From a virus: a stretch of 59,569 nucleotides of DNA. Below the pieces are notes generated by a model. The model was not told where the DNA came from. It did not search any database and saw only the letters and a program-made list of their open reading frames with translations. Of the stretch, positions 1 through 27,500 are shown piece by piece. How positions within the stretch are numbered: the first letter of the stretch is position 1; the number at the start of each line of letters is the position of its first letter. The position numbers were made by a program, and so were the translations under genes. The DNA lies in the IMG/VR virus record IMGVR_UViG_3300047560_000779, positions 1 to 59,569 of that record; one strand, given 5' to 3'.

Positions 1-127
1 GGGGGCGCAAGCCCCCGACCTTTTAGCGCACCTATCACGCCCCATAGTCGACAGCATCGGAGTACATCATGCGTACACATCTCGTGCCCAGCGGCACCAT
101 GCCCCAATCCATCAAGCGCGACAAGTT
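1..127. repeat. Left copy of 127-bp terminal overlap
   Basis: Bases 1-127 are identical to 59443-59569. The length equals a common maximum assembler k-mer, so this is most likely an uncollapsed overlap of a circular assembly and not a biological terminal repeat. It shows that the sequence closes on itself and that no gene is lost at the ends. Confidence 0.95.
29..40 (+). repeat. CACCTATCACGC motif copy 1
   Basis: Exact 12-mer, 28 bases upstream of the ATG at 69. It is also present in the terminal duplicate at 59471-59482. See the finding on this repeat. Confidence 0.7.
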
Positions 128-314
128 CGTGCCACTTAGTTTGCCCCAGCGTTTCATGGGCGGCCCAGCCCAACGCTCTGGTGTCAGTCAAGCATCAAGC
201 TATGCGTCCATACCTGTGTTCGGGTTCAATGGCAGCCCGATGCGGTCGGGCGGCACCAACGGCGAAGTCCAAATTCTGTCACGCCGCAATGTATCTAAAT
301 TTACTACTGTATAA
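69..314 (+). CDS. Doubtful 81-aa protein
   Basis: The ATG at 69 follows a CGGAG sequence at a suitable distance and lies just downstream of the terminator hairpin and a CACCTATCACGC copy. The product is Ser/Gly/Arg-rich with no recognisable domain, and it ends where the AT-rich iteron-like region begins. A competing frame (181-414) covers much of the same DNA. I do not recognise it. Either it is a small early gene or this stretch is a non-coding leader. Confidence 0.3.
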   Translation: MRTHLVPSGTMPQSIKRDKFVPLSLPQRFMGGPAQRSGVSQASSYASIPVFGFNGSPMRSGGTNGEVQILSRRNVSKFTTV

Positions 315-654
315 AGATACATGTCGAATTTGCTGGAATTGTCCAAAGTGCAAACCAGCAAAATACCCAGCAAATTCAAAGAATGGCTTAACCATGCGGG
401 TTAGCCAAGGGTAATTTTACGATTTTACGATTTGTTATGTATTTTGAGCCAGAAAGATATAGAAGAAGACAAGTCTATAAAGTGTATTACGCGGCGCGTA
501 ATACTCATGGTCACATACAACTCGCGTAACCCGTCTGACCCTCTGGAAAACCCAACAAATTGCAAAATTCAACGTAAGTCGTTGATTTATAAGGGTTTCA
601 AATTTTACGATTTTTTAGCCCCCTCAAATTCCAGCAAATTCACGTAGAAGAAAG
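315..654. other. AT-rich non-coding region with iteron-like repeats (possible origin or control region)
   Basis: No convincing gene is present here. The element CCAGCAAATTC occurs at 367-378 and 631-642 in direct orientation and at 327-338 inverted (CGAATTTGCTGG). Looser copies lie near 354 (CCAGCAAAAT) and 554 (CCAACAAATTG). ATTTTACGATTT occurs near 415 and 602. A 21-bp palindrome sits at 484-504. Clustered direct and inverted short repeats in an AT-rich gap are typical of initiator-binding origins or operator clusters. The role is inferred only. Confidence 0.45.
484..504. promoter_or_regulatory. 21-bp palindromic operator candidate
   Basis: GTATTACGC-GGC-GCGTAATAC has two perfect 9-bp arms around a 3-bp spacer. 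TATAAA, a possible -10 box, lies just upstream at 476-481, but no matching -35 was found. The symmetry fits a dimeric DNA-binding protein site. The ribbon-helix-helix protein at 58097-58228 is one candidate ligand, which is an inference. Confidence 0.5.
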
Positions 655-819
655 ATGTACAAAATGTTAATGCACCTTCAAATCCCGCAAAATCTCCAAG
701 ATCAGCCCATCGACCTGATGGATGACACCGAATACGTATTTGAGCTGCCCAGCGAGTCCGAGCTTTTGGATTCATTGGACGATGCAATACTTAATTCGTA
801 CAGAGCTATCTGGTCATAG
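655..819 (+). CDS. Small acidic protein, 54 aa
   Basis: The ATG at 655 follows AGAAG at good spacing and reads to a TAG at 817-819. The product starts MYKMLMHLQIPQN and is strongly acidic in its second half (ELPSESELLDSLDDA). It matches no family I recognise. It is the first plausible gene downstream of the repeat-rich region and could be an early host-interaction protein, without direct evidence. A CACCTATCACGC copy follows 10 bases after its stop. Confidence 0.5.
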   Translation: MYKMLMHLQIPQNLQDQPIDLMDDTEYVFELPSESELLDSLDDAILNSYRAIWS

Positions 820-828
820 CAACCACGT

Positions 829-840
829 CACCTATCACGC
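829..840 (+). repeat. CACCTATCACGC motif copy 2
   Basis: Exact 12-mer in a short intergenic gap, 15 bases upstream of the ATG at 856. Confidence 0.7.
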
Positions 841-855
841 CGCAGAGGTCTAAGC

Positions 856-1077
856 ATGTCGCATACACACAACTTAATCTGCACCCACTGTTACGCAGTC
901 CGTGTGGAACCACCACGAGCCCGCCTTGGATACACCACATGTATGGGATGCGGGGAAACCCTAGCCCGTAAGGTAAAGCACACATCGGTACCAATGCCCA
1001 AATCAAACTACATATTGGTGACAGACTTGTCTCTATTAAAGGGGCTCAACTCATCCCACAAGGGCGGGACATCGTGA
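856..1077 (+). CDS. Small zinc-ribbon protein, 73 aa
   Basis: Two CxxC knuckles (CTHC near residue 10 and CMGC near residue 32) separated by about 20 residues predict a zinc ribbon. The second half, with VPMPKSNYILVTD and NSSHKGG, resembles a small protein common in phages of aquatic proteobacteria and of unknown function. AGAGG precedes the ATG. The stop overlaps the start of the next gene by 4 bases, making this the first gene of the overlapping early chain. Confidence 0.75.
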   Translation: MSHTHNLICTHCYAVRVEPPRARLGYTTCMGCGETLARKVKHTSVPMPKSNYILVTDLSLLKGLNSSHKGGTS

Positions 1078-1325
1078 ACTGGATAGAGCAGAATCCACAC
1101 GCCTATGCTTCCAACGCCAGACCACTGCATATATTAGTTAGCGATGACAAGTATGTAGCGTTCGTGTCCAAAGAAGACGATGGGTTCAAAGCGTTTGTGC
1201 CAAACCTGAAAGTACTACCCCGAGGCCAATCCAACTCACCTAGCTACCACTTCACACACGACACACTCCAAGAAGCCAAAGACTGGTGCATAGCGGAGCT
1301 GTGGAAACGGAGGTTAGAGCAATGA
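1074..1325 (+). CDS. Early-array paralog, 83 aa, C-terminus EAKDWCIAEL..RRLE
   Basis: First member of the tandem small-protein family. It has a mixed-charge body and ends in TLQEAKDWCIAELWKRRLEQ. The EAK-helix and terminal Arg-Leu-Glu recur in the neighbours. Start and stop both overlap adjacent genes by 4 bases, so translation is probably coupled. The codons for RRLEQ contain the purine-rich site (GGTTAGAG) ahead of the next ATG. Function unknown. Confidence 0.75.
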   Translation: MNWIEQNPHAYASNARPLHILVSDDKYVAFVSKEDDGFKAFVPNLKVLPRGQSNSPSYHFTHDTLQEAKDWCIAELWKRRLEQ

Positions 1326-1600
1326 CACCACTAATAGTAGAGGGCAAAACGCTACTGGCAGTCAAGTGCATCCCAAAGTTCGAGTGCACAGACTGTGCCT
1401 GCGGCAACAAGCGAGGTGGCGGGGACAAGTGCGTGCGTATCCATCCAAAAACCAAAGAGCTGTACTTCGAGTCACTCCAAGGCAACGACCGAAACGGGCT
1501 TCTGTACTGCATCAATGCCACCGAGCATGACTTGGTATTCATCAACGACACACCTGAGGACATTGCACGCTACGTAGCGGCAAGACTGGAGAACACATGA
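1322..1600 (+). CDS. Cys-containing early-array paralog, 92 aa
   Basis: The ATG at 1322 is chosen because it overlaps the preceding stop (ATGA); an in-frame start at 1286 would lie inside the previous gene. Cysteines near residues 17, 23, 26 and 38 (CTDCACG and KC) could bind a metal. The C-terminus DTPEDIARYVAARLENT nearly matches that of the next protein (DTPEHIANYVSLRLENT), showing duplication. GGAG inside the LEN codons serves the next gene. Function unknown. Confidence 0.75.
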   Translation: MTPLIVEGKTLLAVKCIPKFECTDCACGNKRGGGDKCVRIHPKTKELYFESLQGNDRNGLLYCINATEHDLVFINDTPEDIARYVAARLENT

Positions 1601-1833
1601 CCAAGTATCAGTTCGAGGGGCAGGTATTCGTGATGATGCCAGCAATACTGCTAAACGATTGCCTTGGCTGTTACTTCGAGGACGGTGTGAACCTACCAAC
1701 CAATGACAACGGGACAACACCATGCCCACACACAAAAAAAGCATATGTATGTGACAGCGGGGCACCCGTCCTCATCTTGGACACACCCGAGCACATAGCC
1801 AACTATGTTTCACTCAGACTGGAGAACACATGA
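1597..1833 (+). CDS. Early-array paralog, 78 aa
   Basis: Close relative of the preceding 92-aa protein: both have a Cys-containing middle (CLGCYF here) and end in a DTPE-x-IAxYV-xx-RLENT helix. The last 15 nucleotides (CTGGAGAACACATGA) are identical in the two genes. ATGA overlaps occur at both ends. Function unknown; the pair is the clearest recent duplication in the array. Confidence 0.75.
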   Translation: MTKYQFEGQVFVMMPAILLNDCLGCYFEDGVNLPTNDNGTTPCPHTKKAYVCDSGAPVLILDTPEHIANYVSLRLENT

Positions 1834-2072
1834 GTTACATCATCGACAACGATGGCTTCTTCGAGGCCATAGAACAGGAGAGAGCTATGAACCCCAACAC
1901 AATCACAGTACGCATCAAGGATGTATACGGCACACAGAAGACATACCCCGTGTGCGACAAGGCCAAACTGTTCGCCAAGTTGGCAAACACGACAACGCTC
2001 ACCCATGACGCCCGCCAAATCATCCTAGCACTTGGATACAACATCGAGGTAGAGCCTCGTCACCTATCATGA
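1830..2072 (+). CDS. Small protein, 80 aa
   Basis: Starts at the ATGA overlap with the previous gene and ends in a stop overlapping the next start. Mixed alpha/beta composition, with the segment NTITVRIKDVYGTQKTYPVC followed by a helix and an IILALGYNIEVEP strand. It lacks the family C-terminal EAK-helix, so it is a different protein embedded in the array. A CACCTATCAT motif spans its stop codon. Function unknown. Confidence 0.7.
   Translation: MSYIIDNDGFFEAIEQERAMNPNTITVRIKDVYGTQKTYPVCDKAKLFAKLANTTTLTHDARQIILALGYNIEVEPRHLS
2061..2070 (+). repeat. CACCTATCAT motif variant
   Basis: Matches the first nine bases of the CACCTATCACGC repeat. It overlaps the start codon at 2069 and the end of the preceding gene (codes for HLS-stop). 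Confidence 0.5.
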
Positions 2073-2290
2073 CAACGACACACACGCTCAAAGACGGCAG
2101 AGTGCTTAAGTTGATAAACACTGATCGTGCTCATCCACGTAGTACATCTAATAGCTGTGCCTTTTGCGTAGCGTATCGAGCAGGCGAAGACACTGAGATG
2201 TGTGTCAGCTTACCGCCGTGCTCAGGGTTACGTGCATGGATGGATGACGAGGCGTGGGCTAAATATGTAGCGGAAGGGCTAATGAAATGA
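2069..2290 (+). CDS. Early-array paralog, 73 aa
   Basis: Begins MTTTHTLKDGRVLKL, a short beta-hairpin-like start, and ends in DDEAWAKYVAEGLMK, a degenerate form of the family helix. The Cys-x2-Cys segment near residue 28 and a later pair of cysteines could form a small metal site. Its start overlaps the previous stop by 4 bases. Function unknown. Confidence 0.65.
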   Translation: MTTTHTLKDGRVLKLINTDRAHPRSTSNSCAFCVAYRAGEDTEMCVSLPPCSGLRAWMDDEAWAKYVAEGLMK

Positions 2291-2352
2291 AGTCGCACAT
2301 CACTGTTAAAGGTACTAAGTACCGCATAGCTAAACGATTGGAGAAAGCATGA
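2287..2352 (+). CDS. Micro-protein or remnant paralog, 21 aa
   Basis: An ATG overlapping the preceding stop (AATGA) opens a 21-codon frame starting MKSHITVKGTKYRIAK and ending RLEKA, whose stop overlaps the next ATG. It keeps only the family's terminal R-L-E signature, encoded by TTGGAGAAAGCATGA. It may be a decayed array member kept as a translational relay (leader) that delivers ribosomes and a GGAG site to the next gene. Confidence 0.4.
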   Translation: MKSHITVKGTKYRIAKRLEKA

Positions 2353-2594
2353 AGTGGAAGAAGCATGGGCGTAACTCACGACGAGCTAACCACCTAGAGT
2401 TCTGGGACTTACTTAGTAATGGCGGTGCGCTACTCGCTTTCATTCGTATGGACACAAGGGCTGACCCACCTGCTATCTACACGTATGCAAACGATACGAA
2501 TGACCATGAGCTACAACGACGGTTTGACTCGGTTCGGGAGGCCAAGGACTACACAGTTGCGTACTTTGTAAACAAACGATTGGAGGAAGCATGA
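2349..2594 (+). CDS. Early-array paralog, 81 aa
   Basis: Basic N-terminus (MKWKKHGRNSRR), a central segment carrying FIRMD, and the family C-terminus VREAKDYTVAYFVNKRLEEA. TTGGAGGAAGC encodes the terminal LEEA and places GGAGG 6 bases before the next ATG. Coupled on both sides by ATGA. Function unknown. Confidence 0.7.
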   Translation: MKWKKHGRNSRRANHLEFWDLLSNGGALLAFIRMDTRADPPAIYTYANDTNDHELQRRFDSVREAKDYTVAYFVNKRLEEA

Positions 2595-2812
2595 ACATCG
2601 AATGGAGGCACAACAAAGCCCACCCATCGTGCTACGACATGTATATAAACGACAAGTACGCCCATGTATGGGTACAAGACGCTGGATTCTCATGGCATGC
2701 GTTGCAGTTCAGCCACTCTAATCAGCTCACATCACACCCAACAAAGAAAGAAGCGCAGGAATACCTGATTGCACAACTTGTACAAAGGAGACTCGATGGA
2801 AAAACCAACTGA
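2591..2812 (+). CDS. Early-array paralog, 73 aa, xEW N-terminus
   Basis: Starts MNIEWRHNKAHPS, showing the 'EW' signature near residue 4 shared with several array members, and ends KKEAQEYLIAQLVQRRLDG. The central part is Trp/His/Tyr-rich with a predicted beta-sheet (YINDKYAHVWV). AAGGAG within QRRLD is the ribosome binding site for the membrane protein that starts at 2796. Function unknown. Confidence 0.75.
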   Translation: MNIEWRHNKAHPSCYDMYINDKYAHVWVQDAGFSWHALQFSHSNQLTSHPTKKEAQEYLIAQLVQRRLDGKTN

Positions 2813-2900
2813 CGACTTAACCGAATTCCAAATCATCTGGTGCATCGCGCTTGCCATAGTCATTGGCGTAGCACTGTGGGCGCACCTATCACAGACATAG
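2796..2900 (+). CDS. Single-pass membrane micro-protein, 34 aa
   Basis: The ATG lies inside the previous gene, 6 bases after AAGGAG. The acidic N-terminus (MEKPTDDLTEFQ) precedes one hydrophobic segment (IIWCIALAIVIGVALWAHL), and the protein ends five residues later. A CACCTATCAC motif overlaps the last codons. A tiny inner-membrane protein of unknown role. Confidence 0.6.
   Translation: MEKPTDDLTEFQIIWCIALAIVIGVALWAHLSQT
2883..2892 (+). repeat. CACCTATCAC motif copy
   Basis: Ten-base match to the repeated motif at the end of the 34-aa membrane protein gene, 18 bases before a possible ATG at 2911. Confidence 0.6.
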
Positions 2901-2910
2901 CGGGGGGTTC

Positions 2911-3000
2911 ATGAATCACGGACGGACTAGCGTGGTTGATGTGACTGTCGTCTGTGGGTGCCTAGCTCCCCCCAAGGAAGTAATCAGCGAAGCACCTTGA
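2911..3000 (+). CDS. Possible 29-aa leader peptide
   Basis: The ATG at 2911 follows GGGGGG at good distance and opens a 29-codon frame (MNHGRTSVVDVTVV start). The rest of the gap to 3077 holds no clear promoter. The frame contains no domain and could be chance. If translated, it would lie just upstream of the MoxR-like gene as a leader. Confidence 0.25.
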   Translation: MNHGRTSVVDVTVVCGCLAPPKEVISEAP

Positions 3001-3076
3001 CCCTACAACTGTGACGAGGGGCACAGTACGAATCAACCAACCCCTCACCACCCTCAACTTACTTAGAAAGACTCTC

Positions 3077-4081
3077 ATGAAATACTCTGACATCAAACGC
3101 TCCGTCTTGGCTAACTTCGCCAAAGGCAACAACCTCGTGCCATTCATCGTAGGCAAACCCGGCGGCGGCAAGTCGTCTCTCGCTCGTTCAATCGTTGCAG
3201 AGCTTGGCATTGACCCAGCCCGTGTGACAGAATTCAACCCCTCACTGCGCGACCCAGTAGACATCATGGGCTTACCCAAGACTGACGGTGACCATTCCTC
3301 GTGGTTGCCTCCTTCAGAGTTCTGGCGTATTCGTGACGACGGCACTGACCAACCATGTGCACTCATCGTCGAAGAAATGTCCGATGCGGCTGTGCCTATG
3401 CAGAACCCACTGTGCCGTGTGTTGCTTGACCGCTATGCTGGCGAGCTGAAGCTCCACCCCAAACTGCACATCATTGCAACAGGTAACCGTACCGAAGACA
3501 AGTCTGGTGCGACTCGCATGACTACCAAGCTGGGTAACCGTGTGCAGACGCTGACCTTCGACGAGAACTTGGACGACTGGTGTGACTGGGCTCTCGACAA
3601 CAATATCGCTGTGGAGATGGTGCAGTTCCTGCGCTTCCGACCAAACATGCTGTCTGACTTCGACCCCAACCGTGCTATCAACCCAACGCCTCGTTCGTGG
3701 GAAATGGCTAACCAAGTTGCCACTGACCTGCCTAGTGACTTGTACTTCGCTAACTTGTCCGGCTTAGTCGGCGAGGGTGCGGCGGCTGAGTACGCTGGCT
3801 TCAAGCGTATCTTTGAAAACCTTCCGGACATTGATGGGATACTAATGAACCCTGCCAAAGCCAATGTGCCTGACGACATGCCCGTGTTGTTTGCTCTGAC
3901 TGGTGCGCTTGCTCATCGTGTATCCAAGGACAACTTCGACCGAGTGTGTGAGTACATCAACCGCATCCCCGCTGAGTTCCAAGTGATGTGTGTGCTTGAC
4001 TCCAAGAAGCTCAAGCCTGAGATTGTCAACACCAAAGCCTTCGTGCAGTGGGCGGTCAAGAACGCCAATGTCCTCTCTTGA
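3077..4081 (+). CDS. MoxR-like AAA+ ATPase
   Basis: Walker A GKPGGGKSS lies near residues 26-34, Walker B with a double Glu (ALIVEEM) near 95-101, and a sensor-1-type HIIATGNRTED near 131. The order and the N-T-G pattern fit the MoxR/CbbQ branch of AAA+ proteins, which remodel partners together with VWA-domain proteins. The ATG at 3077 (MKYSDIKRSVL) is preferred; a GTG at 3011 would add 22 untypical residues. A DUF3150-like gene (4780) and a VWA/HExxH gene (6354) follow in the same operon, as expected for a MoxR-VWA chaperone module. Its target in the phage cycle is unknown. Confidence 0.85.
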   Translation: MKYSDIKRSVLANFAKGNNLVPFIVGKPGGGKSSLARSIVAELGIDPARVTEFNPSLRDPVDIMGLPKTDGDHSSWLPPSEFWRIRDDGTDQPCALIVEEMSDAAVPMQNPLCRVLLDRYAGELKLHPKLHIIATGNRTEDKSGATRMTTKLGNRVQTLTFDENLDDWCDWALDNNIAVEMVQFLRFRPNMLSDFDPNRAINPTPRSWEMANQVATDLPSDLYFANLSGLVGEGAAAEYAGFKRIFENLPDIDGILMNPAKANVPDDMPVLFALTGALAHRVSKDNFDRVCEYINRIPAEFQVMCVLDSKKLKPEIVNTKAFVQWAVKNANVLS

Positions 4082-4334
4082 GTGGACAACGAATGTCTAC
4101 GTGACTTCATATCAAGCGGGTAGTGAGCCGACTACTTACCATGAATTGTGGTGGGTGGGTCAAGACCGCACCGCTTGGTACAACTTGCCTGCCGCAAGCA
4201 TACGCAAAGTCAGAGACCGCGTATGGGGGCTCACATTCCCTGACAAAAACGATGGTACCGAACTGTACTTTAAGACACTCAAAGAAGCCAAAGCAATGGG
4301 CATAGCCCTAGTAAGGATGGATGATGGAATATGA
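4068..4334 (+). CDS. Early-array paralog, 88 aa, LEW...EAKAMGIALVRMDDG
   Basis: The ATG at 4068 gives MSSLEWTTNVYV, matching the family's 'xEW' start; it lies 14 bases inside the MoxR-like gene. The centre is Trp-rich (ELWWVGQDRTAWYNL) and the end is TLKEAKAMGIALVRMDDGI. The codons for VRMDD (GTAAGGATGGATGAT) contain both an AAGGATG ribosome site and the next start. Function unknown. It sits inside the MoxR-VWA operon, so the family is interleaved with that module. Confidence 0.75.
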   Translation: MSSLEWTTNVYVTSYQAGSEPTTYHELWWVGQDRTAWYNLPAASIRKVRDRVWGLTFPDKNDGTELYFKTLKEAKAMGIALVRMDDGI

Positions 4335-4590
4335 ATGGCAAGAGGCTAGGGGATTGGCCGACTGGGTGCTACGAGAAGCACCCAAGCAAGAAGGTGATGT
4401 CAAAGTCATCAACGGCTTATCTCATGGCTTCATCATGAAGTCAGGCCCCACGTCATACACGGCGTGGGTTCCCAACGATGCAGGCAACCGCATGGAGTTC
4501 TTCGATGTGGAGACTGCGAAAGCATGGGTATTTACCCAAGTAAGGATGAACGATGGCTCAGCGCTTCTACGTACAGATAGTGTTTGCTGA
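4321..4590 (+). CDS. Early-array paralog, 89 aa, YEW...TAKAWVFTQVRMNDG
   Basis: ATGs at 4321 and 4324 are both usable; either gives the family MEYEW start. The C-terminal helix ETAKAWVFTQVRMNDGS matches the preceding paralog, but here the frame continues 9 residues past the motif, so the gene overlaps the next by 38 bases. AAGGATG within VRMN is the ribosome site for 4553. Function unknown. Confidence 0.75.
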   Translation: MMEYEWQEARGLADWVLREAPKQEGDVKVINGLSHGFIMKSGPTSYTAWVPNDAGNRMEFFDVETAKAWVFTQVRMNDGSALLRTDSVC

Positions 4591-4771
4591 TAACGACGGG
4601 ATGATTATCAGTGGCCCTCTAGCGACAGGACAAAAGAGTAGTTCAGCTAGGACGGTACACGTAATCAGAGACCTTGACCCGACAGAGATTGGGAAAGCGT
4701 TCTTGGTTTTCTATACCGACATCAAGCTGGAAGGCAAGATGCCTATCGACCTAGACAACATTGAATTTTAG
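4553..4771 (+). CDS. Small protein, 72 aa
   Basis: Starts inside the previous gene, 6 bases after AAGGATG. The N-terminus (MAQRFYVQIVFADNDGMI) suggests a beta strand; the C-terminus is acidic (MPIDLDNIEF). It lacks the EAK-helix. GGAGG follows the stop immediately and serves the DUF3150-like gene. Function unknown. Confidence 0.6.
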   Translation: MAQRFYVQIVFADNDGMIISGPLATGQKSSSARTVHVIRDLDPTEIGKAFLVFYTDIKLEGKMPIDLDNIEF

Positions 4772-4779
4772 GAGGACAC

Positions 4780-5655
4780 ATGCAACCGACAACACTCTCA
4801 AGCAAAGCGATGCTAGTAAAGCTGACAGTACGCCGAGCAAACTTAACACGCCGTGATGTAACGGCTGAGCTCATCATTCAGAATCAGATGGACGACACAT
4901 CACTCGTGGTCAACCGCAAACTGTTTCGTGACAAGCTCAACCCAATCAATCGCATCATGCAAAAGGCGAGCGAGGTGTACAACTATCACAAAGCGCACAC
5001 GCTGGCATACGTTGACAAAGGGCCACGCCTGCTACCCAACAGTCAATACATGGACTACACATCTGAGATGCGCCAACGTATCCAAGAGGTAGACAACATG
5101 CTCGACAAGTACATGCCTGACTACGACAACTATGTGCAGTTAGACATCAAGGCTCGTGCATTGGGCAACACGGGTGCGGCTAAGGTTGAGGACTATCCAA
5201 CAGCGGATGACTTCCGTAGCAAGATGGGGTTTGACTTGCGCTTCACTCCACTGCCTGATGCCAAGCACTTCCTGTTCGACATTAGTGACGAGGACATGGC
5301 TGAGTTCAATGCTTCGATGGAGCAAGTATCACAGGGCGCTAGAGCAGAGGTTATTAAAGGCATGCTCGAACCATTGCAACACTTAGTCGAGAAGCTCAAC
5401 AAGCCAATCGGTACTGAGGGTGCGATCTTCCGTGACACTGCTGTGGAGAACGTAGTCGATGGACTCAAACGTGCCAAGGCATTGAATGTAAACGCTGACC
5501 CTGATGTGGATGCTATGGCTGACACGTTACTGCAAGCGATTGACATCTACAACTTCAACAAGGACTCACTGCGCGAGTCACCGATGGTGCGTGAGCAAGC
5601 TGCCTCTAAGCTCGATGCGATTGCCAAGAAGATGGCTGCGTATGGATTGGCTTAA
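4780..5655 (+). CDS. DUF3150-like protein of the MoxR-VWA module
   Basis: 291 aa, mostly helical. Recognisable pattern: a conserved HKAHTLAYVDKGPRLLPNSQY segment near residues 68-88, followed by YMDYTSEMRQ, DYPTADDFRSKMG and FTPLPDAKHF. This arrangement, and the position between a MoxR-like ATPase and a VWA/metallopeptidase-like protein, are what I expect for phage DUF3150 proteins. The role is unknown; a bridging or substrate-binding subunit is an inference. AGGAGG 4 bases before the ATG supports the start. Confidence 0.65.
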   Translation: MQPTTLSSKAMLVKLTVRRANLTRRDVTAELIIQNQMDDTSLVVNRKLFRDKLNPINRIMQKASEVYNYHKAHTLAYVDKGPRLLPNSQYMDYTSEMRQRIQEVDNMLDKYMPDYDNYVQLDIKARALGNTGAAKVEDYPTADDFRSKMGFDLRFTPLPDAKHFLFDISDEDMAEFNASMEQVSQGARAEVIKGMLEPLQHLVEKLNKPIGTEGAIFRDTAVENVVDGLKRAKALNVNADPDVDAMADTLLQAIDIYNFNKDSLRESPMVREQAASKLDAIAKKMAAYGLA

Positions 5656-5833
5656 CAGCTGGATACGTGACATGGTGTACATGGCGTCGGGATTGCTACT
5701 GGCTTTCCTGATTGCCATTACATACACCTTGTATCAGATAGCTAGCGACTGGCTCCAACGCAAGTACACACAACAGGCCAAGCAACCACAGAAAGTGGAC
5801 GGCAAGGTCAAACAACCAATGGGGTTCTTATGA
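5642..5833 (+). CDS. Single-pass membrane protein, 63 aa
   Basis: The ATG at 5642 overlaps the end of the preceding gene. One hydrophobic segment spans about residues 9-33 (MVYMASGLLLAFLIAITYTL), followed by a basic, Gln-rich cytoplasmic tail. The stop overlaps the start of a second membrane protein. Function unknown. Confidence 0.6.
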   Translation: MDWLNSWIRDMVYMASGLLLAFLIAITYTLYQIASDWLQRKYTQQAKQPQKVDGKVKQPMGFL

Positions 5834-6042
5834 CAGACTTTGACTTACTGATCGTAAGCCTCGGGCTCAACGTGTGCTTCCTTGCATACATGTATGGACA
5901 GCGCGTGAAGATTGCCATCATGACTGTGGCGTTACGTGAAGTCTCGTACCTCATGGGACACATCGCTGATGGTAAGGCAATGCCCAAGCGTGACAGCAAG
6001 GGTGAGATTCGTATAAAGGATTTACGCAATGAGACTAATTGA
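5830..6042 (+). CDS. Small membrane-anchored protein, 70 aa
   Basis: The N-terminus LLIVSLGLNVCFLAYMYG is a probable membrane segment; the remainder is a charged tail. It overlaps by 4 bases with the 63-aa membrane protein upstream, so the two may act together. Function unknown. Confidence 0.6.
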   Translation: MTDFDLLIVSLGLNVCFLAYMYGQRVKIAIMTVALREVSYLMGHIADGKAMPKRDSKGEIRIKDLRNETN

Positions 6043-6364
6043 CATAGTGTTTCGACCAATCAAAACATCGCGCTTGATACTGCGCATCTTGCGTGAGAGC
6101 GAGATCAACATCGAGTTCAAACCCAAGCGGCCTCCATCAAAGATTGATAGCGGGTTCGTTGTCCTTGGTAGCAGTTACATGATGCCAGCATCGTCGTTCA
6201 AGTTAATTGCGCAAGACATTGTTAAGGTGGACTATGACGGATACGGCGATAGCCGCATATGGAGGCGACATAAAGATCAATCAATCAGCCCGACTACTGT
6301 GTCCTTCGAGCAAGCAGTAGCAATGTGTGTAAACGAAAAACTGGAGGCCGCAAATGGCAACTAA
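6029..6364 (+). CDS. Early-array relative, 111 aa, C-terminus EQAVAMCVNEKLEAANG
   Basis: Longer than other array members, with a basic N-terminal half (RPIKTSRLILRILRE) and a beta-rich middle. It ends in SFEQAVAMCVNEKLEAANGN, the family helix followed by Lys-Leu-Glu. CTGGAGGCC in the LEA codons places GGAGG before the ATG of the VWA-domain gene, which it overlaps by 11 bases. Function unknown. Confidence 0.65.
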   Translation: MRLIDIVFRPIKTSRLILRILRESEINIEFKPKRPPSKIDSGFVVLGSSYMMPASSFKLIAQDIVKVDYDGYGDSRIWRRHKDQSISPTTVSFEQAVAMCVNEKLEAANGN

Positions 6365-7460
6365 ACTAGAAAAAGCAAAAGCACAGATCGTGCTTGACCA
6401 TCCCTTCTTCGCAGCAATCTTGTTGCGTCGCAAGCTCATCTGTGACAACAGCATCCCAACATTGGCAGTCGATGCTCGTGCCAACATCTACTACAACAAT
6501 GACTTCATCGAGTCGTTGACTGTGCCTCAGATTGTGTGGGGCTTGTGCCACGAGGTAGGCCATGTCATCGGTCAGCATGCTGTGCGTAAGGGTGCTCGCA
6601 ATCACAAGAAGTGGAACTATGCAGGTGACGCATGGATTAACGACACACTCGATGACTCCAACGTAGGCCAACGCATCCAAGGCTGTGTGGACATCAAGGG
6701 TAGCAAGGACAAGACGACTGAGACTATCTATGACGAGTTGCCTGAAGACCACGGTGACAACGGCTTAGGTGATGATGTCATCTATGGCATCGGCCCTGAC
6801 GGTCAAGGTAGACCACTGACACCTGATGAGATCAAAGAGATCGAAGGTCAAATCAAAATCGAGATTGCCGAGGCTGCCCAAGCTGCCAAGATGCGTGGCA
6901 AGCTGTCTGGTAAGTTAGCTGAGATGGTCGCTGCCTTGCTCGAGGTCAAGACACCTTGGTATGAGATTCTCGAGAAGCACATGACTGCGTGTGTTGCACA
7001 AGGTCAGAGCTGGCGTCGTCCTAACCGTCGCTTCGTTGACCACTATCTGCCAAGCGTAGACAAGTTGCCACAGATGGGTGAGCTTGTTGTTCAGGTCGAC
7101 GTATCAGGTTCTATCAGCAAGAAAGAGCTCGACTATTACAACGGTCACCTATCACGCATCATCGAGCAGTGCCGTCCTGAGAAAGTTCATGTGTTGTACA
7201 CCGACACAGAAGTTCAGAAGCACGTTGAGTTCGACTGTGGTGAAGCAGTTGCCCTTGAGTTCTATTCAGGCGGTGGCACTGACATGCCAGCAGGCTTCGA
7301 CTTCCTCGCCACACAGGGAATTGAACCGCAGGTCTTTGTCTGCCTCACAGATGGTTATACAGACTTCGGTGCTGACCCCGGCTATCCCGTTGTGTGGTGT
7401 ATCAGTTCTGATGTCGATGCTCCATGGGGCGAGAACATCCACTTCGAGTTAGAGCAGTGA
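6354..7460 (+). CDS. VWA-like protein with HExxH metallopeptidase-type N-terminus
   Basis: 368 aa. An HEVGHVIGQH motif near residue 66 provides the HExxH zinc-site signature. The C-terminal third has a VWA-type metal site: DVSGS near 249, a GGGTDMPAG threonine near 306 and a CLTDGYTD segment. This architecture matches the DUF2201 family (putative metallopeptidase plus VWA-like domain), usually encoded with MoxR ATPases. A MoxR-like ATPase lies at 3077 and a DUF3150-like gene at 4780. Its substrate is unknown. A CACCTATCACGC repeat lies inside the gene at 7146. Confidence 0.8.
   Translation: MATKLEKAKAQIVLDHPFFAAILLRRKLICDNSIPTLAVDARANIYYNNDFIESLTVPQIVWGLCHEVGHVIGQHAVRKGARNHKKWNYAGDAWINDTLDDSNVGQRIQGCVDIKGSKDKTTETIYDELPEDHGDNGLGDDVIYGIGPDGQGRPLTPDEIKEIEGQIKIEIAEAAQAAKMRGKLSGKLAEMVAALLEVKTPWYEILEKHMTACVAQGQSWRRPNRRFVDHYLPSVDKLPQMGELVVQVDVSGSISKKELDYYNGHLSRIIEQCRPEKVHVLYTDTEVQKHVEFDCGEAVALEFYSGGGTDMPAGFDFLATQGIEPQVFVCLTDGYTDFGADPGYPVVWCISSDVDAPWGENIHFELEQ
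7146..7157 (+). repeat. CACCTATCACGC motif copy 3
   Basis: Exact 12-mer within the VWA-protein gene, read as part of GHLSRI. It falls in a different reading phase from the copy at 11173. Confidence 0.7.
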
Positions 7461-7708
7461 TAACTTGGAAGCGTGTAGGCGAGGCTAGCCGTGACAGGGC
7501 TGGCCACGCTCAGTGGTATCTATGCGATACAAGCTACGCGACAGGCAGGTCGATAGTAGGCGAGGTCGTCCTTCAAGACCCTGATGGGCTACAAACCTAC
7601 TACGCTGCCTTGTTTAATGGGAGCGCTGTTAAGTACTTTACTGATGTAGAAGTTGCCAAGGCTTGGCTGTTGGCGCTATACACATTGGAGAAAGCATCAT
7701 GCAACTAG
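7457..7708 (+). CDS. Early-array paralog, 83 aa, GTG start
   Basis: The GTG at 7457 overlaps the preceding stop (GTGA) and yields MITWKRVGEAS, which fits the family's early Trp; an ATG at 7424 would lie deep in the VWA gene. The C-terminal helix is DVEVAKAWLLALYTLEKAS. TTGGAGAAAGCATC encodes LEKAS and carries the GGAG for the next gene. Function unknown. Confidence 0.65.
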   Translation: MITWKRVGEASRDRAGHAQWYLCDTSYATGRSIVGEVVLQDPDGLQTYYAALFNGSAVKYFTDVEVAKAWLLALYTLEKASCN

Positions 7709-7944
7709 AGTGGCGCACATTCATAAAAGACAACATGCTTGGAGGCTGGCGGCTATACGACGTAGAGCAAACTATTTGGTCTTCGTGGCGAATCTTGGCT
7801 ACTGTGCGCCTCGAGTTATGTGAGACCAAGCAACCAATGAAACTGTGGAGGTTCAAAGTGGAAAGTCTAGACAAAGGCCCAGTGCGGCGGTTCGACACAG
7901 AGGACGAAGCCAAGGCGTTTGCTATCGCTATGGTGCGGCTATGA
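7699..7944 (+). CDS. Early-array paralog, 81 aa, LEW...EAKAFAIAMVRL
   Basis: The ATG at 7699 lies 12 bases after GGAG and produces MQLEWRTF, the canonical family start. The middle contains several Trp residues and the end is TEDEAKAFAIAMVRL. Its stop overlaps the next ATG. A typical member: a short Trp-rich beta part followed by one helix. Function unknown. Confidence 0.75.
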   Translation: MQLEWRTFIKDNMLGGWRLYDVEQTIWSSWRILATVRLELCETKQPMKLWRFKVESLDKGPVRRFDTEDEAKAFAIAMVRL

Positions 7945-8183
7945 CTTGGTATTACGCATGGCAGAACACTCCGTACGACACCCAACGCTGGGACTATATG
8001 TACACCAATGGACACCAGTTCCGCAGGCTAGGGCAAGTAGCTCGAGTCATCCGAGCAAGACAAAGCTACGACGAACCATTGCATGAGTACCAAGCACATG
8101 CCTTTGGTATGAAACAGAAGATGGTATTCCCTACAAGAGTAGAAGCCGAGGCATGGGTAACAGCATGTGAAAGGATGGAGTGA
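7941..8183 (+). CDS. Early-array paralog, 80 aa
   Basis: Starts at the ATGA overlap (MTWYYAWQNTPYDTQRWDYM), very Trp/Tyr-rich at the N-terminus. Ends RVEAEAWVTACERME, where AAAGGATGGAG encodes the terminus and forms the ribosome site of the next gene. Function unknown. Confidence 0.7.
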   Translation: MTWYYAWQNTPYDTQRWDYMYTNGHQFRRLGQVARVIRARQSYDEPLHEYQAHAFGMKQKMVFPTRVEAEAWVTACERME

Positions 8184-8401
8184 TGAAGCTCGAATGGTAC
8201 GAGAGCAGAGATTTCCAATGGGTGCTTGAAGACAGCGAAGGCTATTTGATTGGGCAGATCAAACACTACCCGATTGGGTGGGAGCTTCAATGGAGACCGA
8301 ATACGGCTCGGCGCTCCCGCTGGAACGCACAGTGGTGGCCCGACACCCAGCTCGAAGAAGCCAAAGCATGGGCAATCGCAATGATAAGGATGAGCCAATG
8401 A
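8183..8401 (+). CDS. Early-array paralog, 72 aa, LEW...EAKAWAIAMIRM
   Basis: The ATG at 8183 overlaps the preceding TGA; an upstream GTG at 8180 would add one residue. The start is MKLEWYESRDFQWVLED and the end LEEAKAWAIAMIRMSQ, the best match to the family consensus. ATAAGGATG encodes IRM and acts as the ribosome site. Function unknown. Confidence 0.75.
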   Translation: MKLEWYESRDFQWVLEDSEGYLIGQIKHYPIGWELQWRPNTARRSRWNAQWWPDTQLEEAKAWAIAMIRMSQ

Positions 8402-8682
8402 AAATGACTAGAGCAGAGAAACGGCGGCGCAAGATAGCCAAGCTCGTGGAGATGAAACTCGATGGACTCGAACCACCTGATGACTGGAGGACGATGAACT
8501 ATGAGGAGCTGTATCGCTACCATCAATTCGCACTACGAGAGGCGGATGTGTTCACCAACTACAAGTACTACGGTAAGAGTCTGGTGGACCACATCACGAA
8601 CCACAAAGCACAAGAGATACAACGCTCGATAGACAGAGCAATATTGGAGGAATTAAATGGCGAGCTTAGCAGACCAAGTTGA
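8398..8682 (+). CDS. Basic helical protein, 94 aa
   Basis: The ATG at 8398 overlaps the preceding stop. A strongly basic N-terminus (MKMTRAEKRRRKIAKLVEMK) is followed by helical, charged sequence. It could bind nucleic acid, judged by charge only. The last 26 bases overlap the next gene. Not an EAK-family member. Confidence 0.6.
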   Translation: MKMTRAEKRRRKIAKLVEMKLDGLEPPDDWRTMNYEELYRYHQFALREADVFTNYKYYGKSLVDHITNHKAQEIQRSIDRAILEELNGELSRPS

Positions 8683-8884
8683 AGAACTTGAGGAGAACTA
8701 CCAAGAGTCGCGCAATACAGTGCGAGAGCTTGAAGATCGTATTGAGGTAATGGACAACGTCATCTCAAATTTAAAGAGCATGGTGCATGACCTAGAAGAA
8801 CAGATCGACTGGATTCATACAACTTACCCAGACTTGGAGGTGGCCTTTGAAGTCAAACGAAGACTCGATTCAGCTGCGGTATGA
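8657..8884 (+). CDS. Coiled-coil protein, 75 aa
   Basis: Heptad-like sequence from the start (LADQVEELEENYQESRN) to about residue 60 predicts a coiled coil. It ends VAFEVKRRLDSAAV, whose R-R-L-D resembles the array C-terminus. GGAGG (ATTGGAGGAATTAA) precedes the ATG. Function unknown. Confidence 0.65.
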   Translation: MASLADQVEELEENYQESRNTVRELEDRIEVMDNVISNLKSMVHDLEEQIDWIHTTYPDLEVAFEVKRRLDSAAV

Positions 8885-9128
8885 GTGGGCTGACAGAGGG
8901 ATGCAACAGTATCTTCATCTCGTAGACCCTAATAAAGTGTGGAACTACCAACTAGCCAAGGTGTATTACCAAGGCGGGGAGATATGTAGCAGCACGAAGG
9001 CGCTGCCTGATTACGTTAACGCAAGCACAGTGGCAGAGCTAATACAAGAGCGCAAGCAATACCTCGAACAGAAAGTTGTTCAGTACGTTACCCGACGACT
9101 GGACGAAGCCAACACAGGAGAAATTTAA
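8847..9128 (+). CDS. Early-array relative, 93 aa, TTG start
   Basis: The TTG at 8847 follows GGAGG (8835-8839) and places RYEW near residue 12, close to the family's EW start; the next in-frame ATG would remove this. It ends LEQKVVQYVTRRLDEANTGEI. Overlaps the previous gene by 38 bases. The start is uncertain and the function unknown. Confidence 0.55.
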   Translation: MKSNEDSIQLRYEWADRGMQQYLHLVDPNKVWNYQLAKVYYQGGEICSSTKALPDYVNASTVAELIQERKQYLEQKVVQYVTRRLDEANTGEI

Positions 9129-10042
9129 TGGGCGCACCACTTACTTACAAATACACAGAAGCAATCTTCGCCACACGGCGCAAGAACAGAGACTTCAAGG
9201 CATACAAGACAGACACGCATCTCACCAAAGCAGATGACGGCACATTCACGTTCACGTACATGCAATTCAACTGGGAGCTGGACAAGAAGACCAACATGCA
9301 CAAGCGTAGTGATGCACGCGACGCGGTTCCATTGGTCAGCATTACACCGGATGACGTGGTAACTCTACTTGCACCTGAGACAAAGGCTTGGCCTAGTGTG
9401 CACCACATGACTATTCGCAATCGACTGCATGACATCACCGGCTTCGACATCTACTCAGATACTGGCCACCATCACAACAAAGAAACACCCATTCGCGTCA
9501 CGCATCGTTACTATGGACAGCATGGGTGGCAGAAGCCAGCATGGTGCGCAAACACCAACGACAAAACCATTCCATACAAAATGGGCACACAGTTCCGCAC
9601 CATTGATAGCAAATCAGGCCTCACCGAGTGCCTCAACACCCCTAAGGACATTAAGAGCGTCGTGAAGAATGAAGCAATCCAATCAGCCAAAGCTGACACA
9701 GTAATCATCCGCAAGCTGGCAATGGTTATGTTGCGTGTTGGCTTTGAAGAACACGTCGAGAAGAAGCTCAGCAGCTATTGGTATGCACCCCAGCAAATCA
9801 AGCTCATCAAAGACATTGACTACAAGAACCCAACGGGTGACGACGCAATGGCTGTGCTCGCTCATGGACTGCATATGGCGTCTCGTCCCGACACTCATGT
9901 ATGGAAGGATGGCAAGTACACCGAGCGCTCAAGGGAAGAACGTATCAGCCTGCTGCGTTCACGTACTCTTGAGAACGGTATGAAGGCACTGCGCCAGCAC
10001 ATCTATGCAACAACCAACGGTTATGAAAAGGTAGAGGTCTAA
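9128..10042 (+). CDS. Unknown 304-aa early protein
   Basis: Well-formed gene starting at ATG with AGGAG 12 bases upstream. No motif I can assign. The N-terminal 100 residues look beta-rich with a FTFTYMQFNWEL strand; a His-rich segment (DTGHHHNKETP) lies near residue 115; the C-terminal half is helical and ends in a repeated RSREERISLLRSRTLE type segment. It is one of the largest early genes and precedes a 67-bp gap, so it probably ends an operon segment. Confidence 0.6.
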   Translation: MGAPLTYKYTEAIFATRRKNRDFKAYKTDTHLTKADDGTFTFTYMQFNWELDKKTNMHKRSDARDAVPLVSITPDDVVTLLAPETKAWPSVHHMTIRNRLHDITGFDIYSDTGHHHNKETPIRVTHRYYGQHGWQKPAWCANTNDKTIPYKMGTQFRTIDSKSGLTECLNTPKDIKSVVKNEAIQSAKADTVIIRKLAMVMLRVGFEEHVEKKLSSYWYAPQQIKLIKDIDYKNPTGDDAMAVLAHGLHMASRPDTHVWKDGKYTERSREERISLLRSRTLENGMKALRQHIYATTNGYEKVEV

Positions 10043-10073
10043 TGAAAAAATAATCTATAGAACATACACACGT

Positions 10074-10088
10074 TTGATATATCATCAA
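10074..10088. promoter_or_regulatory. Small inverted repeat in an early intergenic leader
   Basis: TTGAT-N5-ATCAA lies in the AT-rich 67-bp gap (10043-10109) before the 217-aa gene. This gap interrupts the otherwise overlapping chain, so an internal promoter or operator is plausible, but no paired -35/-10 boxes could be assigned. Confidence 0.3.
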
Positions 10089-10109
10089 CTCACTTACTGA
10101 AAGAACACC

Positions 10110-24569: not shown

Positions 24570-27500
24570 TTAGATAATGCCAGCCACAAACTGTTTGTTG
24601 GCTTTGGTTGTCTCGATACCGCCGACCACTGAAGCTTCACGCTTCCTAGCAGCCACGATGGCTTTGAACAGGTCTGACATTGGCTGTCTAGTGTACCCGT
24701 TCTTAGCCCGAGCATCCTGCAATTCCTGCCAACTTTGGCGGGCTTCTGCCATGGCTGCGGTGTCACCTTCGCGGTTAGCTGCAACGTAGTCACCCTTGAT
24801 CTCAGATGCCTTGGTTGAGTAGAACTTGTCGAATTCTTTCTCCACGTTCTGGCGGTACTGACGTTGGGTAATGGTATTTGTTGGCAGACCAACAGCTTGG
24901 AACGCTGCATCCACCATGCTGACTTCTTCTGGGCTGAGCACGATGTCGCCGTTACGCATTGTGATGCCCTCGGTAGCAAACCGGTAGCCCTTCATGGCAT
25001 TGGCAAAACCTGTTGGCAGGGCTTGCTCCATACCTTTGTACAGCTCACCTTGGCCAACTAGACCCAGTGCATCGGCAAACTTCAAGCCAAGGGCAGCGGT
25101 TGGGCCCATCAAACCAACCAACATCTTCTCTGCGCCAGAACGGCTAGTCAGGTCAACGTCAGTAAATGGCAGGATCGAGGCAACGTTTTCCATAGCCAGC
25201 TTCTTGCCAATGGATTCAGCACCGAAGTATGCAGGCACACCGCGCAACAGTAAGTTGGCCAGCTCTGGATCACCGATGGCTTGACGCAGTTGGTACTCCA
25301 AGTCCTTGGGTTCGTCATCGTCGCCAAAGATATTGACCAGCAAGTTGCCGATCTGAGAAGCAAACGGTACACCCAGTGCACCGCCCAACACAGACATGTG
25401 AGCCGTGATGAACTTGAGGGAACGACGCGCCACCATACGTTCCTCAGCGGATGCACCCTTGAACGCGTTCTTGATGAGCTTGCCCAACATGGACAACTGG
25501 ATGATCTGGAAGCGCTTGAACTGACCGACCACCTTACCCACGTTGGAGTTCAGGATACGAGGTGTGTTGAAACCGTCGTATGAACCATGGGTGTTGGACA
25601 CAGTCTCAGCGGCAAACTTAGTAGCAGCTTCAGTGTTGTTGACTCCGTAGCGTTGGAGGTATCCGCGATAGGCAGCCACGGCAGCCGTTGCACGGTTGAC
25701 CGCTTCAATGCGGTTGTTGACTCCGTTGAGCTTGCGCATCACAGAGCTAGTCAGGGTACGCTCGTTGGCGTATACGACTGCGTCGGCATCAATACCAATG
25801 TCGATCTTGCCCATACGGACAAGTTTCAAGAGCATATCGCGCACGTCGGCTGGAGCTTTGGAGAAATCCAAGTGCTCGTTGACGTTGGTGTCTTTCACCA
25901 AGCTGACAACATCTTTGTATGCGGCGTTGATCGAACGCAGTGAACGGTGATAACCCAAACGGCCAGCCATGTAAGGCAGAGACAAGACGTAGGTCTGAGT
26001 CATCTGTTGCAGGTAGAACGCAGGGTTGAACGCCAAGAACCAAGTGTGGCCAAGTCGAGTCAATGCTCGTGCTAGTGGCGCTGGTGTCTTGTAGTTGATG
26101 TCGTTAGCGTAGCGCTTGAGCAACTCGTTCAGGTATGGACGAGCGTTGGTTGGATCGCCCTTGGCCTCGTCGCGCATGTTGCTGATGGCGTCAGTGATGT
26201 CACCGTTGTGCTTTAAGCTAGCCAAGAAGTGAGCGTCGGCACGGCCACGGGTGGCCAAGTTGCGCATCATGTCCTTGTCAGCACCGGAGATGTTCTTACG
26301 CTGCATTGCTGTGCGGTGGGCGCTAGCCTCAGACACAGTGGCCAAGTACAGGTCAGACACAGTCTTATTCAGAGCGGTCAGGACTTCTTGGTCAGCCATA
26401 GTGATCTCACCAGACTTGATGCGGCGAGTCAGCATGTTGCGCAGACGGGTGATACCCATGAACAAGTCGCTACCGCCGACAAAGGCTTCGCTGACTTCCT
26501 TCTCTGCACCGTACACCTGCTGGTAACGACCGGATGCTTTCCACTGCTCAGCCTTGTTCTGGGCTTCAGCCATGGTCTCAGCAAACTCAACGATGTAGTG
26601 GTTGGCGTCCGACTGGTTCTGCTCGAGCCACTTAGTAGCATCGAGGTCGCCTTGAGCGGCCAGCTTCTCAGCATCCGCGTAAGTCTCGGACTTGGCCACG
26701 GCCACGTAATCGCCATAACGACCGAGGTAGGCGTAAGGCATGTCGTTCTTGATGTTCATCAAGCGGTCGAACTTGGACTTCCATGCACTGCGGTCAGCAG
26801 CGATGTTGTTCAGTTGCTCTTGGTCGCCATTGGCATCCAGCTCGCGTTGAGAGAACTCTTTGTCCGCAGCAGCCGTGACGGCTTGCTGTTTTAAACGCAG
26901 GGATTGGTAGCCATGGTCAAACACCATCTTGATGACTTGCTGCGCGGCAGCAGGCATTGCGTCAAAGCGACGGGCCATCTCATCGTCAGGCTTGATGTTT
27001 GGGTTGTATGCGGGTACGTAGCCCCACTTGCTGTCTGAGGTGGAGTCAAAAATGAACTCGTTCACGCTACCACGGCCAGTGCCTTGCAGCTCTGTGGGCA
27101 GCTTCTCAAACGCTTCTTCAATCTTCTGGATGCGTTGCTCATGCTCAATGCGAGTACCTTGGCGCTCGTACTGGTTGGCCAGATAGTCTTGGGCCGAAGG
27201 CATGTACTTGCTAGCACCATTGACCACGTCTTCAGTAATACCAGCAGCCAACAGGATGTGCTTGACGTCCTCATTGCGGTTGACCAGTGCGTCTTTACCG
27301 GAGTTCATCAAGGTGTCCACAACTGTTTTGGTTGTGGGTTGGAGCGGCTTAGGCAGACCAGCAATCTTGCGAGCTATTACCGCACGGCCTTTGTACAACA
27401 GTTGGTTTTCAGCCGCAACATGCTCTGGAGCGATCTTAGCCAGCTCCGCAGCTGGGTAGTTAGCACGTAGCATGACGGTATTGGCTTCGGCTTCCCCGCC

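Follow-up and report, generated by a model that had tools for sequence, protein, structure and literature searches.

How far is the end of a protein shaped by the start of the gene that follows it? The question is raised by the early genes of an uncultured aquatic phage, in which small proteins end again and again in R-L-E, R-L-D or R-M at the point where the next gene begins. A preliminary description of this DNA (IMGVR_UViG_3300047560_000779; all 59,569 bases were analysed and are called the window here) proposed that the codons of these residues double as the Shine-Dalgarno (SD) site of the following gene, that such joints are a property of one protein family, and that they drive module shuffling.

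The early array and its joints

The window encodes an SU10-type portal protein with about 39% identity to the portal of Rhizobium phage RHph_TM27A, and no near DNA match to the window was found among named phages. Its initial 24 kb are read rightward, and many small overlapping genes there surround an AAA ATPase gene (3077-4081) and a metallopeptidase/VWA protein gene (6354-7460; DUF2201). The MoxR-like ATPase and the VWA protein form a conserved pair around and between which the small genes are inserted, and a comparable pair is annotated in RHph_TM27A. The late half of the window is read leftward and contains a single 2725-codon open frame on the minus strand (24570-32747).

Two IMG/VR scans yielded 62 related loci, some of which share one contig, and thereby made comparative tests possible; use of the protein 9128-10042 as a scan query did not find relatives. 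Genes were called with a small home-made program that deliberately takes no account of SD sites. It missed some starts, among them those at 4553, 4780, 8657 and 8847 of the window and, in one run, 2069, and counts per class are therefore approximate. SD sites were scored by their pairing energy with ACCUCCUUA, a good site being one at -5 kcal/mol or lower; all SD energies assume this canonical anti-SD, and that of the host may differ. Orthologue clusters are single-linkage clusters, and the event counts given below are phylogenetically non-independent.

Most joints in the gene chain 1074-10042 are -4, -1 or deeper overlaps, with stop and start codons overlapping or nearly touching. A good SD is present at 20 of the 25 joints, nearly always within the upstream gene; the five joints without one precede the starts at 2069, 3077, 5642, 7457 and 7941. 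All eight joint words quoted in the preliminary description are present on the plus strand only, with none on the minus strand, and each lies at a start codon: CTGGAGAACACATGA at 1586 and 1819, TTGGAGAAAGCATGA at 2338, TTGGAGGAAGCATGA at 2580, CTGGAGGCCGCAAATGG at 6341, AGGAGACTCGATGG at 2786, GTAAGGATGGATGATG at 4311 and ATAAGGATGAGCCAATGA at 8384. Further joint words are CGGAGGTTAGAGCAATGA (1308), GTAAGGATGAACGATGG (4540), TTGGAGAAAGCATCATG (7685) and GAAAGGATGGAGTGATG (8169).

The genes themselves, all on the plus strand, show how varied these joints are. The family member at 1074..1325 ends CGG AGG TTA GAG CAA TGA, which holds the SD of gene 1322. The small ORF 1322..1600 (end ARLENT) carries the SD CTGGAG within its last codons, and the next one, 1597..1833 (end LRLENT), matches the end of gene 1322 at 41 of its terminal 55 nt and at all of the last 18. 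The small ORF 1830..2072 (end EPRHLS) has an ATGA overlap that lacks an SD and is instead preceded by CACCTATC, and 2069..2290 (end VAEGLMK) has its SD, GGAAGGG, farther upstream in its own codons. A 21-codon ORF at 2287..2352 is barely more than a C-terminal RIAKRLEKA plus the joint. It is followed by two family members, 2349..2594 (end VNKRLEEA, SD TTGGAGG), after which a different gene stands in related locus L005, and 2591..2812 (end QRRLDGKTN, SD AAGGAGA), which overlaps the next start by 17 nt; the 34-codon ORF 2796..2900 starts from this SD within gene 2591. Beyond the ATPase, the family member 4068..4334 (end VRMDDGI, SD AAGGATG) overlaps the next start by 14 nt, and in 4321..4590 VRMND is followed by a tail of about 12 residues that reads through the start of the next gene. 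After the VWA gene come the family members 7457..7708 (end TLEKASCN, SD TTGGAGAA), 7699..7944 (end MVRL; an exception, with an ATGA overlap but hardly any SD, at -2.8), 7941..8183 (end ERME, SD AAAGGATGGAG) and 8183..8401 (end IRMSQ, SD AAGGATG). Finally, the ORF 8847..9128, with TRRLDEANTGEI at its end, keeps RRLD but has its SD later, in CACAGGAGAAATTTAATG. Ends in R-L-E, R-L-D or R-M are thus not universal, since EPRHLS, VAEGLMK, ENIHFELEQ and AFAIAMVRL are likewise found at joints. Where the end is of the R-M or R-L-D type, the SD is followed by a variable tail (DDGI, NDGSALL..., GKTN) that lies partly within the start of the next gene, so that the true C-terminus varies gene by gene.

A profile built from nine window members of the small-protein family matched 56 related ORFs in the window and the first 28 loci, and called family genes number 89 (redundant) over all loci. 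Their C-terminal helix, EAKAW..A..R(M/RL), is conserved over divergent paralogues, and in the predicted structures of two members an antiparallel sheet is followed by one C-terminal helix ending at R-M: the model of 4321..4590 has the sheet, a C-terminal helix at 63-77 and a disordered tail, and that of 8183..8401 (pLDDT 88) has five strands and a C-terminal helix at 57-71. As modelled, the helix ends at R-M with the disordered tail beyond it, which plausibly makes this a cheap place in which to write an SD and the next start. The family is unannotated: no convincing Pfam or PHROGs profile match was obtained for any of 40 members, the small paralogues gave no PDB sequence match, and a Foldseek comparison of the family models with PDB gave nothing better than E 0.2; Foldseek matches were weak, with a best E of 0.016, and led to small, uncharacterised proteins of phages.

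Other repeated words occur in the same regions. CACCTATC stands directly before the ATG at a few SD-less joints (window 2061-2072; L005 122; L056 3720 and 5006), where a different signal may possibly have replaced the SD. CACCTATCAC is the most strand-biased 9-mer in the early regions of this phage group, and lies on the plus strand of the window at 29, 829, 2061, 2883, 7146, 11173, 16769 and 59471. Over 632 kb, CACCTATCA occurs 171 times on the early-transcribed strand and once on the other; its occurrences include 35 intergenic contexts and, in many genes, all three frames. CACCTATCAC is found in most related loci with an AAA identity above about 68% (L002-L021, L027, L030, L033-L063) and is absent from the more distant L022-L026, L028 and L029, from the sequenced part of RHph_TM27A and from lambda; it may act as a signal, in DNA or RNA, that is specific to one strand. 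The stretch at window positions 320-650 looks A-T-rich. It holds the direct repeats ATTTTACGATTT and CCAGCAAATTCA as well as GAATTTGCTGGAATT, a perfect inverted repeat of 15 nt whose copies are 286 nt apart, and is possibly an origin or regulatory region.

Codon choice at gene ends

Over all loci, SD energy at overlapping joints has a mean of -5.9, with 62-70% at or below -5, as compared with -2.1 and 14% at random positions. In a synonymous null, the upstream amino acids were held fixed and synonymous codons were redrawn. Family joints bind more strongly than this null (-6.67 observed versus -3.42, z = -8.4, n = 24), and so do the non-family overlaps of the same phages (-5.84 versus -4.00, z = -16.2, n = 356); control gene ends without a nearby start show no SD signal (z = -0.9, n = 271). 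The preliminary description had suggested comparing the codons of these residues with those of the same residues elsewhere, and the comparison is decisive. The Arg codon of Arg-Met is AGG in 19 of 23 cases when terminal with a start 7-16 nt past it and in 2 of 236 when internal, and it is CGT at terminal Arg-Met with the start 19-20 nt off; AGG makes up 6.4% of Arg codons in long genes. Likewise, GAG is used in terminal R-L-E/D in 12 of 16 cases with a start nearby and in 2 of 18 without. Codons at gene ends are clearly selected for the SD beyond the demands of the amino acids, and a single DNA word does encode the end of one protein while providing its stop codon together with the ribosome site and the start of the next gene.

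Selection of this kind is not confined to the family. The presence of SD-bearing ends in non-family genes, and also in lambda, rules out a family-specific mechanism, and the idea of the joint as a property of genes ending R-L-E or R-M is not supported in that form. In non-family genes with a 4-nt overlap, E is enriched at residue -3 and E and G at residue -4, with the codons GAG, GGA, AGG, AAG and GGG, and the conserved tails KGGK, YKDK and WRP of unrelated genes carry the SD themselves. An SD is also present at nine family ends for which no downstream start was called; for most of them the starts are taken to have been missed by the caller. Such missed starts also account in part for the borderline difference in SD between overlapping and non-overlapping orthologues within clusters (38 clusters, p = 0.054). 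Inside long genes, GAG is avoided in Leu-Glu after G-ending Leu codons (46 GAG, 62 GAA) as compared with other Leu codons (247 GAG, 104 GAA), which is consistent with avoidance of an internal SD-like GGAG.

Relatives also show that residues and SD can part. A family member in L013 ends CGT ATG AAT CAC TAA with no overlap, and the next gene is 12 nt away with its own SD outside; L022 and L025 end AGA ATG GGC TGA, with R-M kept and no SD in the codons; and L016, L017, L018 and L021 end CTC AGA ATT TAA, with no SD in the codons and one between the genes. An obligate coupling of the residues to the SD is therefore refuted. The preliminary description had named observations that would speak against its proposal, and one of these, the same terminal residues in codons that form no SD, was made in some relatives lacking the overlap, which refutes the proposal in part; the SD is lost where it is not needed. 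These exceptions fit SD selection that would act upon a moderately conserved helix end.

Could the terminal residues instead be kept for protein function, as the last turn of a C-terminal helix, with the SD a by-product? Conservation of the helix EAKAW..A..R(M/RL) in divergent paralogues, its high-confidence modelled end at R-M, and the persistence of R-M or R-L in some members without an overlapping gene all speak for a role of the residues, and residues alone do give -3.4 as compared with -2.5 for random peptides. However, the codons are biased as well as the residues, and both the AGG counts and the excess over the synonymous null at fixed residues rule out a pure by-product as a full account; we regard this explanation as quite improbable. 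Nor do the joints look like a neutral result of compaction, with ATGA overlaps arising passively and SD matches arising by chance from purine-rich ends. Although short overlaps are common in compact genomes generally (PMC3887535, PMC6728339), SD pairing here lies far above that at random sites and above both the synonymous and the random-peptide nulls, and it is gone at gene ends with no following start. Chance SD matches are ruled out by these nulls and controls, and the neutral explanation has next to no probability left.

The reading that we consider very probable, as judged from the sequence comparisons, is that the small genes of the array, which overlap tightly, would form an early polycistronic unit in which each downstream start would use an SD in the last codons of the preceding gene. 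A ribosome finishing one gene would thus be placed to start the next, by translational coupling through termination-reinitiation, a known way of packing genes and most likely the mechanism here; we infer both that the array is one single transcript and that coupling operates. Wherever genes overlap in these phages, selection for the SD would fix the terminal codons of the upstream gene and partly also its terminal residues. The ends R-L-E and R-M would arise when an SD is fitted into the last helical turn and loose tail of an ancestral family with an amphipathic helix end (EAKAW..A..RRL). Because the SD remains with the upstream gene, a downstream gene could disappear, be newly acquired or give way to another at the ATG, and whatever follows the joint would still be translated.

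Gene exchange at the ATG

For at least 32 upstream clusters, the gene that follows with a 4-nt overlap differs among the phages, with two or more partners per cluster, and 70 of 92 partner sets retain an SD at or below -5. The end CGG AGG TTA GA(G/C) CAATGA, with GAG in the window and GAC in L003 and L009, has three different genes after it in these three genomes. Sequence identity between joints with different partners drops to background right past the ATGA. In six one-gene insertions, both flanks of the extra gene and the corresponding uninterrupted site are -4 joints, and the extra unit runs exactly from ATG to ATG. In L057, for example, the end GTGGAGGCAGC is joined to ATGACTAACTTAAC; in L056 the same end is joined to ATGACTGAACTA, and ATGACTAACTTAAC resumes about 300 bases on. 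The gene inserted in L056 contributes a weak SD only, so a strong SD is not brought by every insertion.

The opposite polarity is also seen. The VWA gene is preceded by different genes whose ends are EKANG(N), EAANGN or similar (window 6341-6364, L007 3485, L014, L038), because these genes read through the ribosome site of the VWA gene, GGAGAAAGCAAATGGC; in the window this is the small ORF 6029..6364 (end KLEAANGN), which reads through the site of the VWA gene at 6354. These are convergent C-termini on bodies that are not shared.

The preliminary proposal that the joints drive module shuffling thus holds in part: comparison of the phages supports exchange exactly at joints, but for genes of every kind, and the joints would be no more than a candidate cause. 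Insertion and swap borders are not confined to the family, and they may be no more than what selection for intact genes leaves after exchange at random places. Another possibility is that the short shared word would itself be the site of exchange, through homologous recombination or phage-recombinase annealing, the joint being an evolved recombination cassette. Within a genome, 2.0% of joint 14-mer pairs from unrelated genes match at 10 or more of their 14 positions, as compared with 0.5% between genomes, a small excess that is missing from most neighbouring 14-mers. Together with the shared ends of genes 1322 and 1597, the ATG-to-ATG insertions and a mycobacteriophage precedent, Island3 genes 67 and 68 (PMC3029335), this is suggestive of joint words acting as recombination sites. 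However, insertions leave both genes intact only at gene boundaries, and precise ATG-to-ATG ends are therefore expected from random exchange plus selection; shared words are scarce, and their origin may lie in C-terminal homology that went undetected or in a clade-wide preference for SD and spacer; and the 14-mer just past the start is also in some excess (4/1627 versus 0.1%). We consider a recombination cassette unlikely. A related idea is that the joint would be a standard connector, in which a unit from one ATG to the next uses the preceding SD and carries an SD onward, so that single units could enter, leave or be exchanged, with exchange helped by the similarity of connectors; this is a tentative and improbable suggestion. 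On the reading favoured above, we infer that the insertions are explained by a joint that is retained, and not by chance together with selection.

Known systems and the meaning of the joints

The individual elements of these joints are known elsewhere. An internal SD in the upstream gene, the resulting constraint on its 3' end, and coupling have been published across hundreds of genomes by Palleja et al. 2009 (PMC2784483), whose paper cites Eyre-Walker on the SD inside the upstream ORF. In 20 of 24 prokaryote groups, roughly half of the overlapping pairs, or more, have an SD (PMC6728339; PMC2784483), and Huber et al. 2019 (PMC6728339) found coupling in 13 of 14 overlapping pairs tested. Such termination-reinitiation coupled pairs have the same ATGA/TGATG overlaps, with the SD inside the upstream ORF. 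The present case differs in that many consecutive, small paralogous phage genes are joined in this manner, and in that the joint is retained while the downstream gene changes. In lambda (nin region, H/M, P/ren) an SD at or below -5 lies in the upstream gene at 10 of 12 annotated -4 joints, and the nin genes have their own recurring tails at joints (DRAA, REAA, SEAA and GEGA); unlike the window, lambda has no shared small-protein family ending R-L-E or R-M.

The Start Associated Sequences (SAS) of cluster K mycobacteriophages are copies of a single fixed 13-bp word, whose conservation extends past the SD (PMC3203893). They resemble the joints as a repeated SD-containing word just upstream of many starts in a non-structural region (PMC3203893), but the joint words vary, with only the SD and the frame in common; the small fraction (2%) of unrelated within-genome joint pairs that agree at 10 or more of 14 positions is not one fixed word with conserved non-pairing bases, and the joints are not SAS. 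In Island3 the neighbouring genes 67 and 68 share their C-terminal 18 residues (PMC3029335), and short boundary sequences at phage module borders are attributed in that paper to Clark 2001 and to Susskind and Botstein 1978. There, too, neighbours share C-terminal residues and DNA where genes are gained and lost; here the SD and the overlapping start are part of the shared end as well, and beyond this end most joints have little in common.

At the level of transcription, five sigma-70-like sites were found in 1-10100 as compared with 10 expected, in a scan that covered sigma-70-like rather than phage-specific promoters, and terminator-like sites numbered 9 as compared with 9.3 expected. The PeSL mobile regulatory cassettes of T4-type phages, reportedly described by Arbiol in 2010 and Comeau in 2014, are said to combine an early promoter with a stem-loop terminator and to have been proposed to allow small-ORF shuffling. 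Both are small regulatory units at gene borders, but the signal here is translational and lies inside genes, and, with no excess of promoter-like or terminator-like sites in these scans of 1-10100, the joints do not look like a PeSL-type cassette.

An SD embedded in an overlap is thus a known mode of gene packing, which recurs in overlaps of every kind, both in these phages and in lambda, and these joints provide a clean, quantified natural example of protein ends shaped by selection on ribosome sites. They also carry a warning: when neighbouring phage genes end alike, the cause can be read-through of a ribosome site instead of homology, as with the EKANG(N) ends before the VWA gene. If the connector reading is true, the translational chain would stay unbroken through insertion, deletion and swap of one unit after another. 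The ATG-to-ATG insertions make the old idea of phage modules joined at their borders specific, in the form of a testable rule on where the translation signal travels.
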